From Verrucomicrobiota bacterium (GTDB lineage: Bacteria; Verrucomicrobiota; Verrucomicrobiia; Verrucomicrobiales; DEV007): a stretch of 64,000 nt of DNA. The translations under genes and the position numbers were made by a program. The first letter of the stretch is position 1. Every line of letters starts with the position of its first letter. The notes below the pieces were generated by a model. That model did not search any database and had not been told where the DNA came from. It was given only the letters and a program-made list of their open reading frames with translations. Positions 1-10,775 of the stretch are shown here, one piece after another. The DNA lies in the NCBI GenBank assembly GCA_030625775.1, contig DAOUQC010000005.1, positions 1 through 64,000 on the forward strand, in the 5' to 3' direction.

Positions 1-1058
1 TTTCGGATGAGTTTGCCGTCGAAATAAATCTCGCCGCCGCCGTAGTCGCGACGTTGGATGTTGACCATGTCCCAGTGGATTTGGGAGCGGTTGCCGTTGT
101 CGGCAATGCCCTCGTAGGCCTGGCCGGCAGCCATGTGGAAAGAACCACCGATTTTTTCATCGAAGAGGATGTCCCGCATCGGGTGTTTGATCTGGTTGTT
201 GAAGCCGATGGCAAATTCGCCGATATAACGAGCACCGGGGTCAGAGTCGAAAATTTTGTTAATCGCTTTGCTTTTGCTTCCCGCATCGGCCTCGACGATT
301 TTGCCTTTTTCAAATTCAAGGCAGATGTTGTCAAAGGCGATGCCTTGATAAACAGTGGGCGCATTGAAGGTGACCTTGCCCTCGATGGAGTCTTTGACCG
401 GGGATGAAAATACTTCGCCATCGGGGATGTTGTGGGTGCCTCCGGCGATGATGGCTTCCAGCCCTGTCAGGCTGAAGTGGAGATGGGTTCCCGGGCCTTT
501 GATTTGCACTTCGTGGGTTTTATCCATCAGGCGTTTGAGGGCCTTCATCGCAGGTTGTAGTTTGCCATAGTCCAAGAGGCAGACCTTGAAATAAAAATCT
601 TCGAAGGCTTCGGTGGACATGTTGGCCTGTTGCGCCATCGAGGGGGTGGGCCAGCGCAGGACGCACCAGCGGGTCTGGTTGACGCGGTAGTTCATTACCG
701 GACGCATTTTGGCAGCGATGGTTTTCATCCGGGCAGTGGGCACATCCGAAAGTTCGTTGATGTTGTCCGCTCCGCGCAGGGCAATGTAGGCATCCATCGA
801 TTTCATCTGCGCCAGAGAATGTTTGGCGGTGGTGGCGATTTGCTCATCGGTCACGCCGTTTGCCAGTTCGCGGGAGAGACGGGAGTGGTTGATGTTGATG
901 AAGGGGATGCCGCCGGCGGCCCGAGTTTCACGGATCAGGGCCAAGCCGATGGAATCGGGTACGTCGTAGAGATCGATGAGGACTTTTTCTCCTCGTTTGA
1001 TTTTTGTCGAATAACGGACAAGCTGTTTGGCGAGTTGATTAATTCGTGGGTCGTGCAT
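1..1058 (-). CDS. M29-family aminopeptidase (3' end cut by window edge)
   Basis: Metal-dependent exopeptidase of the M29 (AmpS/PepS/aminopeptidase T) family, which removes N-terminal residues from peptides in the cytoplasm. Translating the minus strand from the ATG at 1056-1058 gives about 352 residues with no stop before the window edge. The family is normally about 360-410 residues, so only a short C-terminal piece is missing. The family's metal ligands are visible in order: E in DSIEGKV, E in RYIGEF, H and Y in [12 protein letters not shown], then H and D in QIHWDMV. No clear ribosome-binding site precedes the ATG. The gene is divergent from the HldE-PurN fusion, with about 80 bases between them. 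The family call is firm; the peptide specificity is unknown. Confidence 0.88.
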
Positions 1059-1138
1059 GGCTAAGGTTGATTGAAAATTGAGATGGCTAAGTATGATTAC
1101 ACTGAAAGGAGAACACTTTAAACTGCTTAAGCGAGTCT

Positions 1139-2221
1139 ATGAAGGAAAATAATTACGTTTCTGAACTGACCGAACTGGCTGCGTGGAGAGATGCTTTGGC
1201 GGTTGAGGGCAAACGTGTGGTTTTGACCAACGGTTGTTTTGATCTTCTGCATGCGGGGCATGTGCGCTATTTGAAAGAAGCGAGGGCTTTGGGGGATGCT
1301 TTGGTGGTGGCACTGAATTCAGACACTTCGGTGAAGGCGTTGAAAGGAGATGGGCGACCGGTGCACTGTGCGCAGGATCGTGCAGAAATTTTGTGTGCTT
1401 TGGAAGCGGTGGACCGGGTGGTGGTTTTTGATCAAGCGCGGGTGACTGGCGTGATCGAGTCTTTGCGACCACAAGTCTACGCCAAGGGGGGAGATTACAC
1501 GGTGGAGAGTTTGAATGCCGAAGAGCGAGGTGCACTGGAAGGGGTGGGTGCAGAAATTCGTATTTTGTCATTGGTTCCGGGTAGGTCGACGAGCCGGACT
1601 TTGAAGCAGATGGCGGAGACTGAAGGGGCGGAACGAAAAGCAAAACTGGGGGTCTTGGGATCGGGTAAAGGTTCGAATCTTGACGCTATTTTCAAAAAAA
1701 TTGATGCGGGTGAATTGAATGCTGAAGTCGTGGTGGTGATTTCAGACGTGGCAGGCGCGGGGATTCTGGACTTGGCAAAAGAGCGGGAGGTTCAGGTCAT
1801 CCGGATTGATCCGGGTTATGAAAAAGGCGGACAGTTGAGTGATGGGGCGATCAAGGAGATCACAGATCGCCTGCGGGCGGCGGGAGTGGATTTGGTGGTG
1901 TTGGCAGGGTTTATGAAAATTGTCCGGGGTGAATTGCTGGATGAGTATTCAGGGCGGATGCTGAATATTCATCCCTCGTTACTGCCAAAATTCAAAGGGT
2001 TGGCAGCGTGGAAACAGGCCTTGGATGCGGGAGTGAAGGAGACGGGTTGCACCGTGCATCTGGTATCAGCCGGAGTGGACTCGGGTGAGATTTTGGGGCA
2101 GGCGAAAGTGCCGGTCATGGAGGGGGATACTGCGGTGGAGGTTCACGCGAGGATTCAAGAGCAGGAATATGAGCTGTATTCGAGGGTGATAGGTGAGATA
2201 CTGGACGCAATGGCCCAATGA
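1139..2221 (+). CDS. Fused heptose-1-phosphate adenylyltransferase (HldE C-domain) and GAR transformylase (PurN)
   Basis: A 360-residue protein made of two complete enzymes that normally sit in unrelated pathways. Residues about 8-155 match the HldE/RfaE adenylyltransferase domain (ADP-heptose synthesis for LPS core): TNGCFDLLHAGH with the HxGH nucleotide-binding motif at 38-41, LNSD at 59-62, KGGDY at 116-120 and GRSTS at 148-152. Residues about 168-360 match PurN, which formylates glycinamide ribonucleotide in purine synthesis: GSGKGSN at 174-180, AGFMKI at 256-261, and the catalytic N276, H278 (NIHPSLLP) and D314. The linker is only about 12 residues, and there is no frame change or internal stop. 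The HldE kinase domain is absent. All catalytic motifs are intact, so both activities are expected. The start ATG has only a weak AAGCGAG upstream. Confidence 0.9.
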   Translation: MKENNYVSELTELAAWRDALAVEGKRVVLTNGCFDLLHAGHVRYLKEARALGDALVVALNSDTSVKALKGDGRPVHCAQDRAEILCALEAVDRVVVFDQARVTGVIESLRPQVYAKGGDYTVESLNAEERGALEGVGAEIRILSLVPGRSTSRTLKQMAETEGAERKAKLGVLGSGKGSNLDAIFKKIDAGELNAEVVVVISDVAGAGILDLAKEREVQVIRIDPGYEKGGQLSDGAIKEITDRLRAAGVDLVVLAGFMKIVRGELLDEYSGRMLNIHPSLLPKFKGLAAWKQALDAGVKETGCTVHLVSAGVDSGEILGQAKVPVMEGDTAVEVHARIQEQEYELYSRVIGEILDAMAQ

Positions 2222-2915: not shown

Positions 2916-4925
2916 ATGGCATCTATCTTATCGGGTCTGAATCCGGCCCAGAATGCAGCGGTCAAGCAGATGCGTGGCCCTGTCCTGATTCTTGCCGGCG
3001 CAGGGACTGGGAAGACGCGGGTGATCACGGCGCGCATTGCCTACATGCTGAAGCAAGGGGTGCATCCCAGCAAAATCCTTGCGGTGACTTTTACCAACAA
3101 GGCTGCTCAGGAAATGCGTGAGCGGGTGGCTGGAGCAGTGCCGGAGCAGGCCGCAAAAGTGGTGACAGTTTCAACTTTCCATTCGATGTGCGTGAAGATT
3201 TTGCGGGAATCGATCACCTGTCTGGGATACAAAAAAAACTTCACGATCTACGACCAGTCGGATCAGGTGGGTTTGATCCGTCGTATTATTGTGCGCAAGG
3301 CAGCGGGCGATGAAAAGCTTGAACCAAAGTTGGCGCAAAGTTTGATCAGCACGGCTAAGAACAAGGGGATTCCGGTTTCGGATAAGGCGGATTCGTTGAT
3401 TGCGGAAGTTTACCGGGCTTACCAGGCGGAGCTAAAGCAACTGAATGCGGTAGATTTTGATGATCTGATGTTGCTGGCGGTGGAGATTTTGAATGTCTCC
3501 CCGGAGGCGAGACGCTTGTGGAGGCAACGTTTTGAATTCATGATGGTCGATGAGTTCCAGGATACCAATTCGCTGCAGATGGAGTTGGTGCAGTTGTTGG
3601 TTAGGCCGGAAACGAATAATATTTGTGTAGTTGGAGATGATGATCAGAGTATCTACGGATTCCGTGGTGCGGAGATCACCAATATTTTGGATTTCGAGCG
3701 GTTTTTCCCAAATCCAAAAGTGATCAAGCTGGAGGAGAACTATCGTTCAACCAATATCATCCTGAAGCTGGCCAACAGTGTGATCAAAAACAATGTAGGG
3801 CGCAGGGAGAAAACTTTGTGGAGTTCGAAGGGAGAAGGGGAGGTGCCGAGGTTGATGGGCATGCCGGATGAAGAGACGGAAGCGGAAGCTTTGGTCTATG
3901 AGATCCTGGAGCAGCGTCAGGAAAAAAAGCGCGAGTGGGAGGATTTTGCGATTTTGTTCCGTATGAACACCCAGTCGAGATTGTTCGAGCAGGCACTTAG
4001 GGAGCAGGATATTCCTTACCGGATTCTGGGCGGGCAGAGCTTTTTTGAAAAACGCGAGGTGAAGGATGTGTTGTCTTACATGTCGCTTTTCCTGAACCCG
4101 GATGATGATGTGAGTCTGCTGCGGGTGATCAACAATCCGCCGAGGGGGATTGGCAATACCACGATTGCCACAGCGACCGAATATTCGATCCAGAAAAATT
4201 GCAGTATTTTTGAGGCTCTGCGTGACAAGGCTTATTTGGGCACCCTGTCCACCCGGGCGCGCACGGCGGTGAGGACTTTCCGGGATATGGTCGACACTTA
4301 TTGCGAACTGGCCAAAAGCGAGACTTTGAACTATGCCGCGATGACCTCCCAGTTGCTCGATGACATCGGTTTCATGGACTATGTGCGCAGAAACTGCCGC
4401 ACACCTGAAGAAGCTTTGGCAAGGGAGCAAACCGTGAACGATGTGATGGAGAGCATGCGTTCCCATCGTGAGCGGTCAGCGGCTTCCGGTGGATTGAGGG
4501 ATTTCATGGACAGTGTGGCTTTGCGCCAGGAGAAGGAGGATCGCGATGACGGTGAAAGAGGCTGGGGTGTGTCATTGATCACCATGCATGCGGCCAAAGG
4601 ACTGGAGTTTCCGGTGGTATATGTGTCCGGAATCGAGCAAGGGGTGTTGCCACATTCGCGCTCTCTGGAAGAAGGGCAAATAGATGAAGAACGACGGATT
4701 TTGTATGTTGCCCTGACCCGGGCGATGGAGCAATTGACGATGACCTGGTGTTTTACGCGGACCAAATGGGGGCAGAAGCAGGGTTGCCAATTGAGTTGTT
4801 TTGTAGATGAGTTTGAAGATGGCTTGTTTGAGGAAATTGACTATGAAGAACTGGTCGCAAAACCCGCAAGCGAAGAAGAAGTTGGGGACTATTTTGATCA
4901 GATCCGGCAGATGCTGTCGGGTTGA
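2916..4925 (+). CDS. UvrD/Rep/PcrA-type superfamily 1 DNA helicase
   Basis: A 3'-to-5' ATP-dependent DNA helicase of superfamily 1A, 669 residues, close to the length of E. coli Rep. Motifs in order: Q-motif region LNPAQNAAV near residue 8, Walker A AGAGTGKT at 27-34, motif Ia TFTNKAA, Walker B MVDEFQDTN near 210, motif III DDDQSIYGFRGAE near 240, motif IV ENYRST near 273, motif V ITMHAAKGLEF near 551 and motif VI YVALTRA near 597. It lacks the long UvrD C-terminal tail, which favours Rep or PcrA. Expected roles are replication restart or repair at stalled forks. It ends with a short acidic tail. Family assignment is firm; the choice among Rep, PcrA and UvrD is not. Confidence 0.93.
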   Translation: MASILSGLNPAQNAAVKQMRGPVLILAGAGTGKTRVITARIAYMLKQGVHPSKILAVTFTNKAAQEMRERVAGAVPEQAAKVVTVSTFHSMCVKILRESITCLGYKKNFTIYDQSDQVGLIRRIIVRKAAGDEKLEPKLAQSLISTAKNKGIPVSDKADSLIAEVYRAYQAELKQLNAVDFDDLMLLAVEILNVSPEARRLWRQRFEFMMVDEFQDTNSLQMELVQLLVRPETNNICVVGDDDQSIYGFRGAEITNILDFERFFPNPKVIKLEENYRSTNIILKLANSVIKNNVGRREKTLWSSKGEGEVPRLMGMPDEETEAEALVYEILEQRQEKKREWEDFAILFRMNTQSRLFEQALREQDIPYRILGGQSFFEKREVKDVLSYMSLFLNPDDDVSLLRVINNPPRGIGNTTIATATEYSIQKNCSIFEALRDKAYLGTLSTRARTAVRTFRDMVDTYCELAKSETLNYAAMTSQLLDDIGFMDYVRRNCRTPEEALAREQTVNDVMESMRSHRERSAASGGLRDFMDSVALRQEKEDRDDGERGWGVSLITMHAAKGLEFPVVYVSGIEQGVLPHSRSLEEGQIDEERRILYVALTRAMEQLTMTWCFTRTKWGQKQGCQLSCFVDEFEDGLFEEIDYEELVAKPASEEEVGDYFDQIRQMLSG

Positions 4926-6954: not shown

Positions 6955-9222
6955 ATGGCAGCAGAAATCGCATTATTGGAGGAGGCCTTGAAAGCTTCAC
7001 CTGGCAATTGGAAAACCCGTCGTTTTCTAATTGATCACTGGGTGGGACAAGGGGACGCGGCTCAAGCATCCGCTTTGATCAAAGACGCCCCTGAATTGCC
7101 GGAAGATGAAGAGGAAAAGCTATTTGTTGCAGAAGTGGTGGGGAAAACGGATGCCGATGAAGCCCACAAAATCCTAGATGATGTTTTGAAGGCGAATGCG
7201 GCCAGCGCTGCAGCTCATTTGGCCAAAGCCCGTTTGCATCTCGATGCGGGAGATATCGACAAAGCGGAGTCCCATATGAAAGTGGCTACCGTGGTTGCCC
7301 CTGCGCTTAGTGAGGGTGGAGGGGAGGAAGAGGTGGCTGTTGTAGAAGCGCAAGTGGAAGCCGAGCCCGAGCCCGCTGTGGAAGTTGAATTTGAAACTGA
7401 ACCCGAGGAAGAGGCCCTTGTAGCGGTTGCCCTTGCGGTAGAAGAAGATGATGATTCGGAAGAAGTGGTGGCGGCTGTGGCCCTTGTCGAGGAATCTGTT
7501 TCACAGTCGGTTCAGGCGGCCGTTGAGGAATCTGCATCTGTAAAACCACGTTCTCTGCGGCCCCCAGCTAGCTCTCCTACGGGCCCTGATCCGGAAGCGG
7601 GTTCTGCTCCGGTCAAACCGCGGTCATTGCGTCCGCCGGGAGCGGATGAAGACGGGGAGCAAGAAGCGGATTTTCATTCAGGTGCCGTGGCCGCGGCAGC
7701 GACTGGTGCGGCGGCAGTGCCTGCGGATGGCACAGGGCCAGTTGGCGACGGGGAGCGGTCTTTCATGGTTGCCGAAGGAGAGATGGTTGCGGTTCACGAT
7801 AAAGATCCCGATACTAAGGAAAAAGTTTCAGCATTGACTACGGCGGTGATCGTGCATGTGATAATTTTCTTGGTCCTTTGGGGTATCGTAATTGTTGTGC
7901 CAAACAACCCTCCTCCCCAATTCTCGGTTCAGGCGATGTCGAACAGTGATTCGGATGATATTTCCAGTGAAAAAGTGCAGAAAATGCAGAAGACCAAGAG
8001 CTCACCAGTGACGGCAGCGATGCCGGTCATTAGTGCAGCTGCCTATTCATCGGTAGCGATTCCGGAAGTGAATCAGGCGGTGAATGATCTGGCTCTGGTC
8101 AGTATGAGTGCCGATACGGGCACAGGATTCGGGATGTCGATGGGTGGTTTTGGTGATGTGTCCAATATGGGATCCATTCCAACGGCAATGCGCTCACGCT
8201 GCAGTATGTCGCAGCGGATGAAACGGCTTCGTGAGAGTGGAGGCGATCCGGGAGCTGAGAGAGTGGTGAGGAATGCGCTCGAGTGGTTGGCTTTGAATCA
8301 GAATAAAGACGGCTCATGGGGTAAGGATTTCAAATGTGCGATGACGGGGGTTGCCCTGTTGGCCTATCTGGGGCATTGCGAGACTCCGGAGTCACCCAAA
8401 TATGGGGATGCGGTAGTGAATGCGGCTTTGTATCTGATGGACCGTGGTTTGAAAAACAAAGGCAAACTTTGGAACACCAATATTCCTAAAGGGTCCGCAT
8501 ACACGCACGGCATGGCGACTTACGGTTTGGCTGAGCTTTATACCATGACCAAGGAAAGTGGACGGGAAATTCCGCGATTGGAATCGGTGTTGCGCAAAGC
8601 TGCCAAGATCATCGTGGACGGCCAGGATGCCCGGGGAGGCTGGAATTATGGATATGCCAAAGGCGCCACCAGTGACCTTTCGGTGGGCGGTTGGCAGTTT
8701 CAGGCATTGAAGGCCTTGCACAATACCGGCAGGGACTTTTCGGGGGTGGACAAGGCTATGGATAAAGCGGTTAAGTATATCAAGGGTATTCAGGATTCCC
8801 AGGGGGCATTCAAATACAACAGCAAAGACACTAAAGGAAAAAAATCGATGGCGGTGGTGGGGATGTTGGCTTTGCAGATGTGGCATCAGGAGGATTCGAA
8901 CGAAGGCAAAAAAGCAATGGCTTATAACAGGATTGCTTTTAAAGCTCCTGGTGTATCGGCTGATTATTACACGCCCTATTATGCCACCCAGGTGTTTTTC
9001 CTGCACGGCGGTGATGACTGGAAAAAATACAATACCATCTTTCAGAAAAAACTCCTTGCTGCCCAGAACAAGGATGGATCCTGGTCAAAACCTAACGCTG
9101 GCCATGGAGATGCTGACTCCCAGGTATTGGCGACTTGTTGGGCGACATTAACTCTCGAAGTTTATTATCGTTATTTGCCGACGACTGATAAAGTCGAGGG
9201 ACTGAAGGTAGGGATGAAATAG
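6955..9222 (+). CDS. Membrane-anchored protein with N-terminal TPR-like module and C-terminal alpha/alpha-toroid (squalene-cyclase-like) domain
   Basis: A 755-residue protein in three parts. Residues about 1-120 are TPR-like helices. Residues 121-285 are a low-complexity E/V/P-rich linker containing a twofold repeat (KPRSLRPP). One transmembrane helix lies at about 290-315 (ALTTAVIVHVIIFLVLWGIV), followed by NNPPP. The outer part from about 430 is a prenyltransferase/squalene-cyclase-type alpha/alpha toroid with repeated motifs such as NQNKDGSWG, DARGGWNYGY and NKDGSWSKP. The DxDD motif of squalene-hopene cyclase is not seen, so terpene cyclisation is unlikely and a binding or scaffold role is more plausible (inference). 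AAGGA near 6940 serves as RBS. Its stop overlaps the start of the VWA gene by one base. N-terminus and anchor are paralogous to that neighbour. Confidence 0.85.
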   Translation: MAAEIALLEEALKASPGNWKTRRFLIDHWVGQGDAAQASALIKDAPELPEDEEEKLFVAEVVGKTDADEAHKILDDVLKANAASAAAHLAKARLHLDAGDIDKAESHMKVATVVAPALSEGGGEEEVAVVEAQVEAEPEPAVEVEFETEPEEEALVAVALAVEEDDDSEEVVAAVALVEESVSQSVQAAVEESASVKPRSLRPPASSPTGPDPEAGSAPVKPRSLRPPGADEDGEQEADFHSGAVAAAATGAAAVPADGTGPVGDGERSFMVAEGEMVAVHDKDPDTKEKVSALTTAVIVHVIIFLVLWGIVIVVPNNPPPQFSVQAMSNSDSDDISSEKVQKMQKTKSSPVTAAMPVISAAAYSSVAIPEVNQAVNDLALVSMSADTGTGFGMSMGGFGDVSNMGSIPTAMRSRCSMSQRMKRLRESGGDPGAERVVRNALEWLALNQNKDGSWGKDFKCAMTGVALLAYLGHCETPESPKYGDAVVNAALYLMDRGLKNKGKLWNTNIPKGSAYTHGMATYGLAELYTMTKESGREIPRLESVLRKAAKIIVDGQDARGGWNYGYAKGATSDLSVGGWQFQALKALHNTGRDFSGVDKAMDKAVKYIKGIQDSQGAFKYNSKDTKGKKSMAVVGMLALQMWHQEDSNEGKKAMAYNRIAFKAPGVSADYYTPYYATQVFFLHGGDDWKKYNTIFQKKLLAAQNKDGSWSKPNAGHGDADSQVLATCWATLTLEVYYRYLPTTDKVEGLKVGMK

Positions 9223-10775
9223 TGGATCAGTTATTGAATCGTCTTGCCCATAATCCTGAAAGTTGGGAGGATCGCCTTGCCTTGGCGGAAGGGTATTTTG
9301 CCCATGGGGATCATGGGGCTATTGCGGAATTATTTCGCTCTGCTCCCAATGCACCCGTGTCACAACAACAGACCCATCGAGCGGTCGAACTGACGGCGGG
9401 TGGTGATTTGTCGGGCTTGAACGAGGTGTTGTTGAAATACACCTCGGCTAACCCGGCGGATGCCTGGGCGCATCATGTTTATGCGAGGATCCTGGTGCAC
9501 CAGCATCGTTTGGAAGAGGCTCGGAAGGAATATGCGTTGGCCTTATCCCTGGATAGCAACAAGAAGGATACCGAATTGGAGGCGCTTTTAGGTCACCCTG
9601 ATGCGAGCGAGGAAGAAAAATTACAAGTCGATCCAGAGACTCCTCCGGTTGAATTTGTGGGCAAGACTTTCATGGTGGCCCTGGGAAATGCAGTAAAACC
9701 CCAGGAGAAGGAGTCGGATGAAAAGGTGAAGATCAGGGCTTTGAGCACAGCCGTGATTATCCACATTGTTATGTTTGTTTCCTTTTATTGGATTGTCGTT
9801 TCCGTGGCACCGGCCCCCCCCCCCTTGATCACGGCTGTATCGGTTCATTCACTGGATGAGGATGCCTTATCGAAGAACAGGGCTAAAATTTTAGAGAGTG
9901 AAGTGCAGGAAAGTGCCGATTCCAGAGTGGCAGTTAATTTGGATTCACTTTCATCCATCACGGCACCTGAGATGAATGCACAGATTGACAGCTTTGCGCC
10001 AGTTGGTCTGGGTAGCTATGGCAGCAGCATGAGTTTTTCCAAAGGGTCAGGCGGGGGTACGGTATCCTTTTTTGGGTCAAAAACGCGGGCACAGCGAGTG
10101 GTTTTTGTAGTGGATTTTTCAGCTTCAATGATAGGGGATAAGGAGAAGCTGATGCGGCAGGAGTTATCCAAGTCCGTGAAGGCCCTGCCGGACACGGTGG
10201 AGTATGCCTTGATTTTTTTCTCAGGGCCAGCCTGGTATGCAGGACAAAAGGTGGGGCATGCCGAGCTGATGGGAAAATGGGTGGGCAATACGGTGAGTGA
10301 CAGGAATAATCGTTATATCTGGTATGAAGGGTGGGATGAGAAGGGTCGCCATTCGGGAGCAAACAAGACGGCCTTACATCATTTTTCAGAGGGGAAAGAT
10401 CGTTTGCCTGCAGGTAAATACCAAAGAGCGAGTGGTCTGAATAAAAGGAATTCTCTGGAAATTATCGAGCAGACCCCTTTGGTGTTTGGCACTGATTGGC
10501 GCTGGCCATTGATGATGGCAATGAATATGAAACCTGACGTGATTTATTTCATGACGGATGGAGCTTTTGGCGTTGGCAGGGGGGTGACTAAAAAAGAGAT
10601 GATTAACAATCTGCTGGTTTATAATCGCAGCCAAGGTAATGCTAAAATTAATACGATCTGTATGAAGGTATTGACCGCAAGGGGGGAGTTGGAGCAGTTG
10701 GCAAACGGCAGCGGCGGGGAGTTTACCCTGATCAAGGCTGACGGAGCCGTTGTGCGTGGAGTTGATCTCAAGTAA
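9222..10775 (+). CDS. Membrane-anchored VWA-domain protein with N-terminal TPR-like module
   Basis: A 517-residue protein starting at GTG 9222, whose first base is the last base of the upstream stop, so the two genes are probably translationally coupled. Residues about 1-130 are TPR-like. One transmembrane helix lies at about 173-197 (ALSTAVIIHIVMFVSFYWIV), followed by PAPPP. The C-terminal half from about 290 is a von Willebrand factor A fold: VVFVVDFSASMIG carries the DxSxS metal-ion-dependent adhesion motif, and FMTDGAF near 445 supplies the later Asp. The stretch FMVALGNAV...ALSTAVI mirrors FMVAEGEMV...ALTTAVI in the upstream protein, so the two arose by duplication followed by a swap of the outer domain. 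A partner-binding role at the envelope is inference. Confidence 0.87.
   Translation: MDQLLNRLAHNPESWEDRLALAEGYFAHGDHGAIAELFRSAPNAPVSQQQTHRAVELTAGGDLSGLNEVLLKYTSANPADAWAHHVYARILVHQHRLEEARKEYALALSLDSNKKDTELEALLGHPDASEEEKLQVDPETPPVEFVGKTFMVALGNAVKPQEKESDEKVKIRALSTAVIIHIVMFVSFYWIVVSVAPAPPPLITAVSVHSLDEDALSKNRAKILESEVQESADSRVAVNLDSLSSITAPEMNAQIDSFAPVGLGSYGSSMSFSKGSGGGTVSFFGSKTRAQRVVFVVDFSASMIGDKEKLMRQELSKSVKALPDTVEYALIFFSGPAWYAGQKVGHAELMGKWVGNTVSDRNNRYIWYEGWDEKGRHSGANKTALHHFSEGKDRLPAGKYQRASGLNKRNSLEIIEQTPLVFGTDWRWPLMMAMNMKPDVIYFMTDGAFGVGRGVTKKEMINNLLVYNRSQGNAKINTICMKVLTARGELEQLANGSGGEFTLIKADGAVVRGVDLK

Follow-up and report, generated by a model that had tools for sequence, protein, structure and literature searches.

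An HldC-type adenylyltransferase and PurN joined in one protein in a group of Verrucomicrobiota

The window, a stretch of 64,000 nucleotides, is the first part of a 111,833-base contig (C57) from a Verrucomicrobiota genome (the host genome) of 4.88 Mb that is 96.4% complete. Near its start it contains a single open frame of 360 amino acid residues plus stop, the hldC-purN fusion gene. The features of this gene are as follows.

1139..2221, plus strand: hldC-purN fusion gene, an open frame whose start, MKENNYVS, is common to the same-genus loci L023 and L024
1196..1615, plus strand: predicted HldC-type (rfaE domain II) heptose-1-phosphate adenylyltransferase domain, residues 20-159 (TIGR02199, E 3.4e-49; best solved relative 5x9q, E 3.1e-30)
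1250..1261, plus strand: HAGH, residues 38-41, which we take to be the nucleotidyltransferase HxGH motif; H38, G40 and H41 are invariant across the fused proteins
1616..1639, plus strand: linker, residues 160-167, the span between the TIGR02199 and TIGR00639 profile matches
1640..2209, plus strand: PurN (GAR transformylase) domain, residues 168-357 (TIGR00639, 191 bits; 3auf, E 6.5e-45)
1964..1972, plus strand: presumed PurN catalytic residues N276 and H278 (NIH of NIHPSLLP), identical in 44/44 fused proteins
2078..2080, plus strand: presumed PurN catalytic residue D314, identical in 43/44 fused proteins and lost in one genome (G050)

Pfam matches in the 360-residue chain were CTP_transf_like (residues 29-124) and Formyl_trans_N (residues 169-351). 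Together with the open frame and the NCBIfam matches, they bear out the sequence-only reading, which had placed a heptose adenylyltransferase and PurN in one chain. The linker had been put at about 12 residues in that reading; the two profile matches leave a gap of 8. Across the 44 fused proteins the linker measures 7 to 34 residues and has no conserved sequence or length. M158, just ahead of the linker, would be a candidate internal purN start in the fused gene, but some fused proteins have another residue at this position.

The fusion ATG has no close Shine-Dalgarno sequence (window 1083-1139). An AAGGAG is located about 27 bases upstream of this ATG, within a short frame of 12 codons (1083-1121) that closes ahead of the fusion gene. 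An M29 aminopeptidase gene (3-1058, minus strand), cut by the contig start, is divergent from the fusion gene, which is followed downstream by a DUF4870 protein (2300-2842) and a UvrD-type helicase (2916-4925). Loci L110 and L116 likewise have a helicase from the same cluster downstream. Farther along the window, 6955-10775 encodes two large proteins side by side, each TPR-like at the N-terminus; the first weakly resembles squalene-hopene cyclase repeats, scoring below cut-off.

The N-terminal half scored 166.4 bits against TIGR02199 (rfaE_dom_II), under the curated NCBIfam cut-off of 181.5, as did the corresponding halves of the same-genus relatives (166.2 and 167.7 bits). We therefore call this half HldC-type and not a curated member of the family. 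TIGR02199 was by far the best adenylyltransferase family for it, with no other near in NCBIfam. H38, H41, K116, G118, D119 and S150 were identical in 43/43 fused rows covering all six, N60 and K69 were invariant in the fused proteins, and T151 was replaced by Ser in one fused row (L069). The sequence-only reading had labelled this half HldE, with its sugar kinase domain missing. PRK11316 (HldE) aligns to the window protein over its positions 326-473 of 475 only, and no kinase domain was found in the 360-residue chain with Pfam, where HldE has one in the same chain. The kinase is thus absent from the fusion protein as had been noted, but the genome has it as a separate HldA gene on contig C21 (347.6 bits, over cut-off), and HldC is the better label. 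The N-terminal half is probably an HldC-type heptose-1-phosphate adenylyltransferase, with ADP-heptose formation as its predicted reaction.

The C-terminal half scored over the curated cut-off of TIGR00639 (150.1 bits, NCBIfam), and GAR formylation is predicted for it. The window protein keeps N276, H278 and D314, residues presumed catalytic from their roles in E. coli PurN. That all catalytic motifs are intact in both halves, as stated earlier from the sequence, agrees with the residue identity among fused proteins. Pairwise dN/dS over 14 pairs was 0.03-0.13 for the HldC half and 0.04-0.21 for the PurN half, with three PurN values undefined by saturation; the values are rough, synonymous sites being near saturation. 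For the window protein against its two relatives from the same genus, the PurN half gave 0.07 and 0.10. Purifying selection acts on both halves, and on the intact residues and dN/dS we reject a degenerate half in the window protein.

The search for the same domain pair in other genomes, proposed with the sequence-only reading, was run on a sample of 57 related genomes, host included. Both halves lay in one frame in 44 of these (a contig end truncates the G008 copy), one of which (G040) is a single-contig genome; a sequencing or assembly artefact or a chance joining is thereby ruled out. The halves were adjacent but split in two genomes, G054 and G001, the latter of the same genus as the host. 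Six genomes, of family f2, had PurN on its own together with an HldE-like frame some 500 residues long. PurN stood alone in two genomes (G044 and G056), both without HldC, HldA and GmhA, and neither half was found in three (G016, G030 and G025). In addition to the fusion, G032 had a second, divergent HldC frame (L099) and G009 an HldE-like frame of 519 residues (contig C100). In the host genome the fusion was the sole HldC and PurN found: of the separate purN and hldE whose presence the sequence-only reading had proposed to check, no second purN or hldC was detected at E <= 0.001, though PurT is present. Two further matches, C103 and C91, were rejected as duplicates; their similarity, at 27-32% identity, is confined to the formyltransferase half, and they are likely to be Fmt-like proteins.

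For 387 sampled genomes of the phylum, the matches listed included full-length, single-frame, stop-free matches in five genomes, the full-length matches ranking top. A sixth genome (G051) had the two pieces within one 435-residue frame, and all six single-frame genomes among the matches listed belong to the same order. In at least 10 more of the 387, from other families of the class, the alignment spans the pair with one or more intervening stops. A scan of genome contigs with patterns that pick up close relatives gave two loci. In none of 72,556 plasmid records did a single locus span 80% of the query. The fusion is genuine and common within one group of Verrucomicrobiota.

In many relatives the two genes are neighbours. 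In a class sample of 150 genomes an HldC-type frame, defined as one under 480 residues, was found in 114, and 109 of these also have PurN. Of these 109 genomes, 45, belonging to 18 families, have hldC immediately before purN, with both genes on one strand and no more than 400 bases apart, and five of the 45 are fused; the other 64, fragmented assemblies counted, do not show the pair within this distance. For 22/24 split pairs the distance between the hldC stop and the closest potential purN start is -13 to +27 bases, and in several the hldC stop and the purN start overlap by 4 bases. Gene calling in 21 neighbourhoods showed that the pair recurs and most other neighbours differ, except within family f8. 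A wider conserved operon was rejected, with only the pair recurring broadly; the downstream UvrD-type gene is common to three of the 21 (the window, L110 and L116).

PurN sequences of the order group together in the PurN tree (SH-aLRT 96), with the standalone f2 PurN beside fused f6 rows (89), and the trees require five to six changes of the fused state. One fusion near the base of the order is the simplest history and we infer a single origin, which the trees do not prove; more than one fusion event is possible. In the proposed history an old, tightly spaced hldC and purN would have lost the stop codon between them early in the order. Single lineages would later have dropped one half or both; the HldC part would have gone in f2, which has HldE, and in G044 and G056, and the fusion would have been split again in G001 and G054.

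Partners of both pathways were looked for in the same genomes. Besides HldA, the host genome has HldD over cut-off, PurH and four GT9 glycosyltransferase matches. Its GmhA match (164 bits) is below the cut-off of 209, as in 43/48 genomes with a match, and GmhB is a weak candidate only (94.6 bits against a cut-off of 149.6). Across the 57 genomes HldC and the kinase were both present in 49, both absent in 4, HldC alone in 3 and the kinase alone in 1 (Fisher p 0.0004, kinship ignored). The three with HldC and no kinase match (G022, G039 and G046) are 70-83% complete. For HldC and GmhA the counts were 47 both, 4 neither, 5 HldC only and 1 GmhA only (p 0.0015, kinship ignored). The sequence-only reading had offered reuse of the adenylyltransferase half as a reason for the joining; this is left unsupported, as HldC presence tracks the kinase and GmhA. 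PurT is a second route past PurN. It was found over cut-off in 32/57 genomes, the host among them; no genome lacked both PurN and PurT, and 23 had PurN without a trace of PurT. The tracking of HldC with kinase and GmhA and the PurN/PurT pattern point to each half following its own pathway, and the likely picture is one of two working enzymes on a string and not of a new activity.

We consider it likely that the fusion is a bifunctional housekeeping protein, made of two independent enzymes tethered by a linker, which arose from a co-expressed hldC-purN pair by loss of a stop codon. The N-terminal half would attach AMP from ATP to heptose-1-phosphate, for ADP-heptose synthesis towards the lipopolysaccharide core, and the C-terminal half would formylate GAR in purine synthesis, each acting independently on a flexible linker. 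Because the pair is conserved, co-expression appears to have been selected before the fusion and would be the older trait; the ancestral genes may have been co-transcribed and their translation coupled. The conserved pair also supports the earlier guess of coordinated expression. Growth may be the reason, as both pathways, which draw on pentose-phosphate sugars and ATP, should scale with it. Transketolase converts sedoheptulose-7-phosphate to and from ribose-5-phosphate, from which PRPP and purines are made. HldC uses ATP, and according to PMC10221265 sedoheptulose-7-phosphate is where heptose synthesis begins; the earlier statement that the two pathways share no metabolite was thus too strong.

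These shared precursors, the conservation of the pair in 18 families while other neighbours differ, and the retention of the fused state in 44/57 relatives would also fit a real cross-talk, in which one half senses a ligand and adjusts the other, or a joint oligomer fixes the activity ratio, tying envelope sugar to purine supply. We regard this as unlikely, since the linker has no conserved sequence or length and the halves have been lost or split one at a time (G044 and G056 keep PurN only, G001 and G054 are split). A structure model built from a four-row alignment had a mean pLDDT of 58.9, with residues 24-164 under 50, which is too poor for claims on fold or for looking for an interface. 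The divergence of the two halves is correlated (Mantel r 0.667, exceeded in 0/5000 permutations, 43 proteins), as expected from joint travel or from plain vertical descent. A broader form, in which the hldC-purN pair is an unrecognised regulatory link between envelope heptose and purines through the pentose-phosphate pool, and the fusion fixes the ratio or lets one half sense, seems to us rather improbable.

With PurT in the host genome, PurN need not be essential there and could drift. The PurN half might then be redundant in PurT-bearing genomes like the host, losing activity and kept mainly as a tail of HldC. Such a course may be seen in G050, which has PurT and whose protein (L083) keeps its HldC half intact but has lost D314 and the GSN-loop Asn from its PurN half; in addition, the PurN/HldC divergence ratio is slightly higher with PurT (28 versus 15 genomes, p 0.006, kinship ignored). 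For the window protein we hold this to be very unlikely, given the catalytic residues, intact in it and in 43/44, and the low PurN dN/dS in its own genus. Still less probable is a different product of the N-terminal half, some nucleotide sugar or alcohol other than ADP-heptose. Its score just under the HldC model cut-off would allow this, as would 15 genomes with HldC and kinase and no HldD over cut-off (G003, G007, G011, G012, G014, G019, G020, G023, G026, G027, G032, G033, G037, G050 and G053), where the product may stay ADP-D,D-heptose and the D,D form be used. However, no other adenylyltransferase family scores near, and HldC goes with HldA and GmhA. Genus g15 of the same family (G016, 94% complete, and G030, 81% complete) argues likewise: it has no fusion, no full-scoring HldA or HldD, no GmhA and no GT9, a pattern suggesting that LPS heptose has been lost altogether. 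PurT is present in both genomes, in two full copies in G016. A bifunctional protein with two predicted catalytic halves remains our preferred reading.

Both enzymes are well known, and the hldA/hldC split is already described in PMC7993394 and PMC10221265, being ordinary in other bacteria. In open-licence literature no description of the fusion or of an hldC-purN pair was found among the matches listed; the architecture may already be listed in sequence databases. Here a gene pair drawn from two pathways has stayed together across many families of a class, and within one order it has become a single protein; intermediate states, and some that appear to be reversals, can still be seen. This natural series (separate, adjacent, overlapping, fused, split, one half lost) bears on why unrelated enzymes stay coupled. 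It is also a warning for annotation, as fused genomes may be named as having just one of the two enzymes.

Like standalone HldC, for example that of Burkholderia pseudomallei, the N-terminal half of the window protein has the same domain and length; unlike it, it is continued C-terminally by PurN. Residue numbering that is shifted by a constant 12 suggests that 5x9q is the HldC protein of PMC7993394. If so, N31, N60, K69 and K116 of the window protein align with functional residues named in that paper, and the fifth residue named there, Lys100, aligns with A100, next to the invariant R101. The adenylyltransferase half of HldE, which joins it to a kinase, is homologous to the N-terminal half of the window protein; unlike HldE, the window protein is without the kinase half and HldA is a separate gene. 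Frames resembling HldE occur in family f2, which belongs to the same order. Bacterial PurN is normally a single-domain protein of about 200 residues, and in the trifunctional purine protein the partners of PurN are purine enzymes. PurN is listed in the PDB also as part of that protein; the PurN half of the window protein is over the equivalog cut-off with its catalytic triad intact. The hldC-purN gene pairs of other Verrucomicrobiota families have the same two genes in the same order as the fusion, but they encode two proteins where the fusion encodes one.
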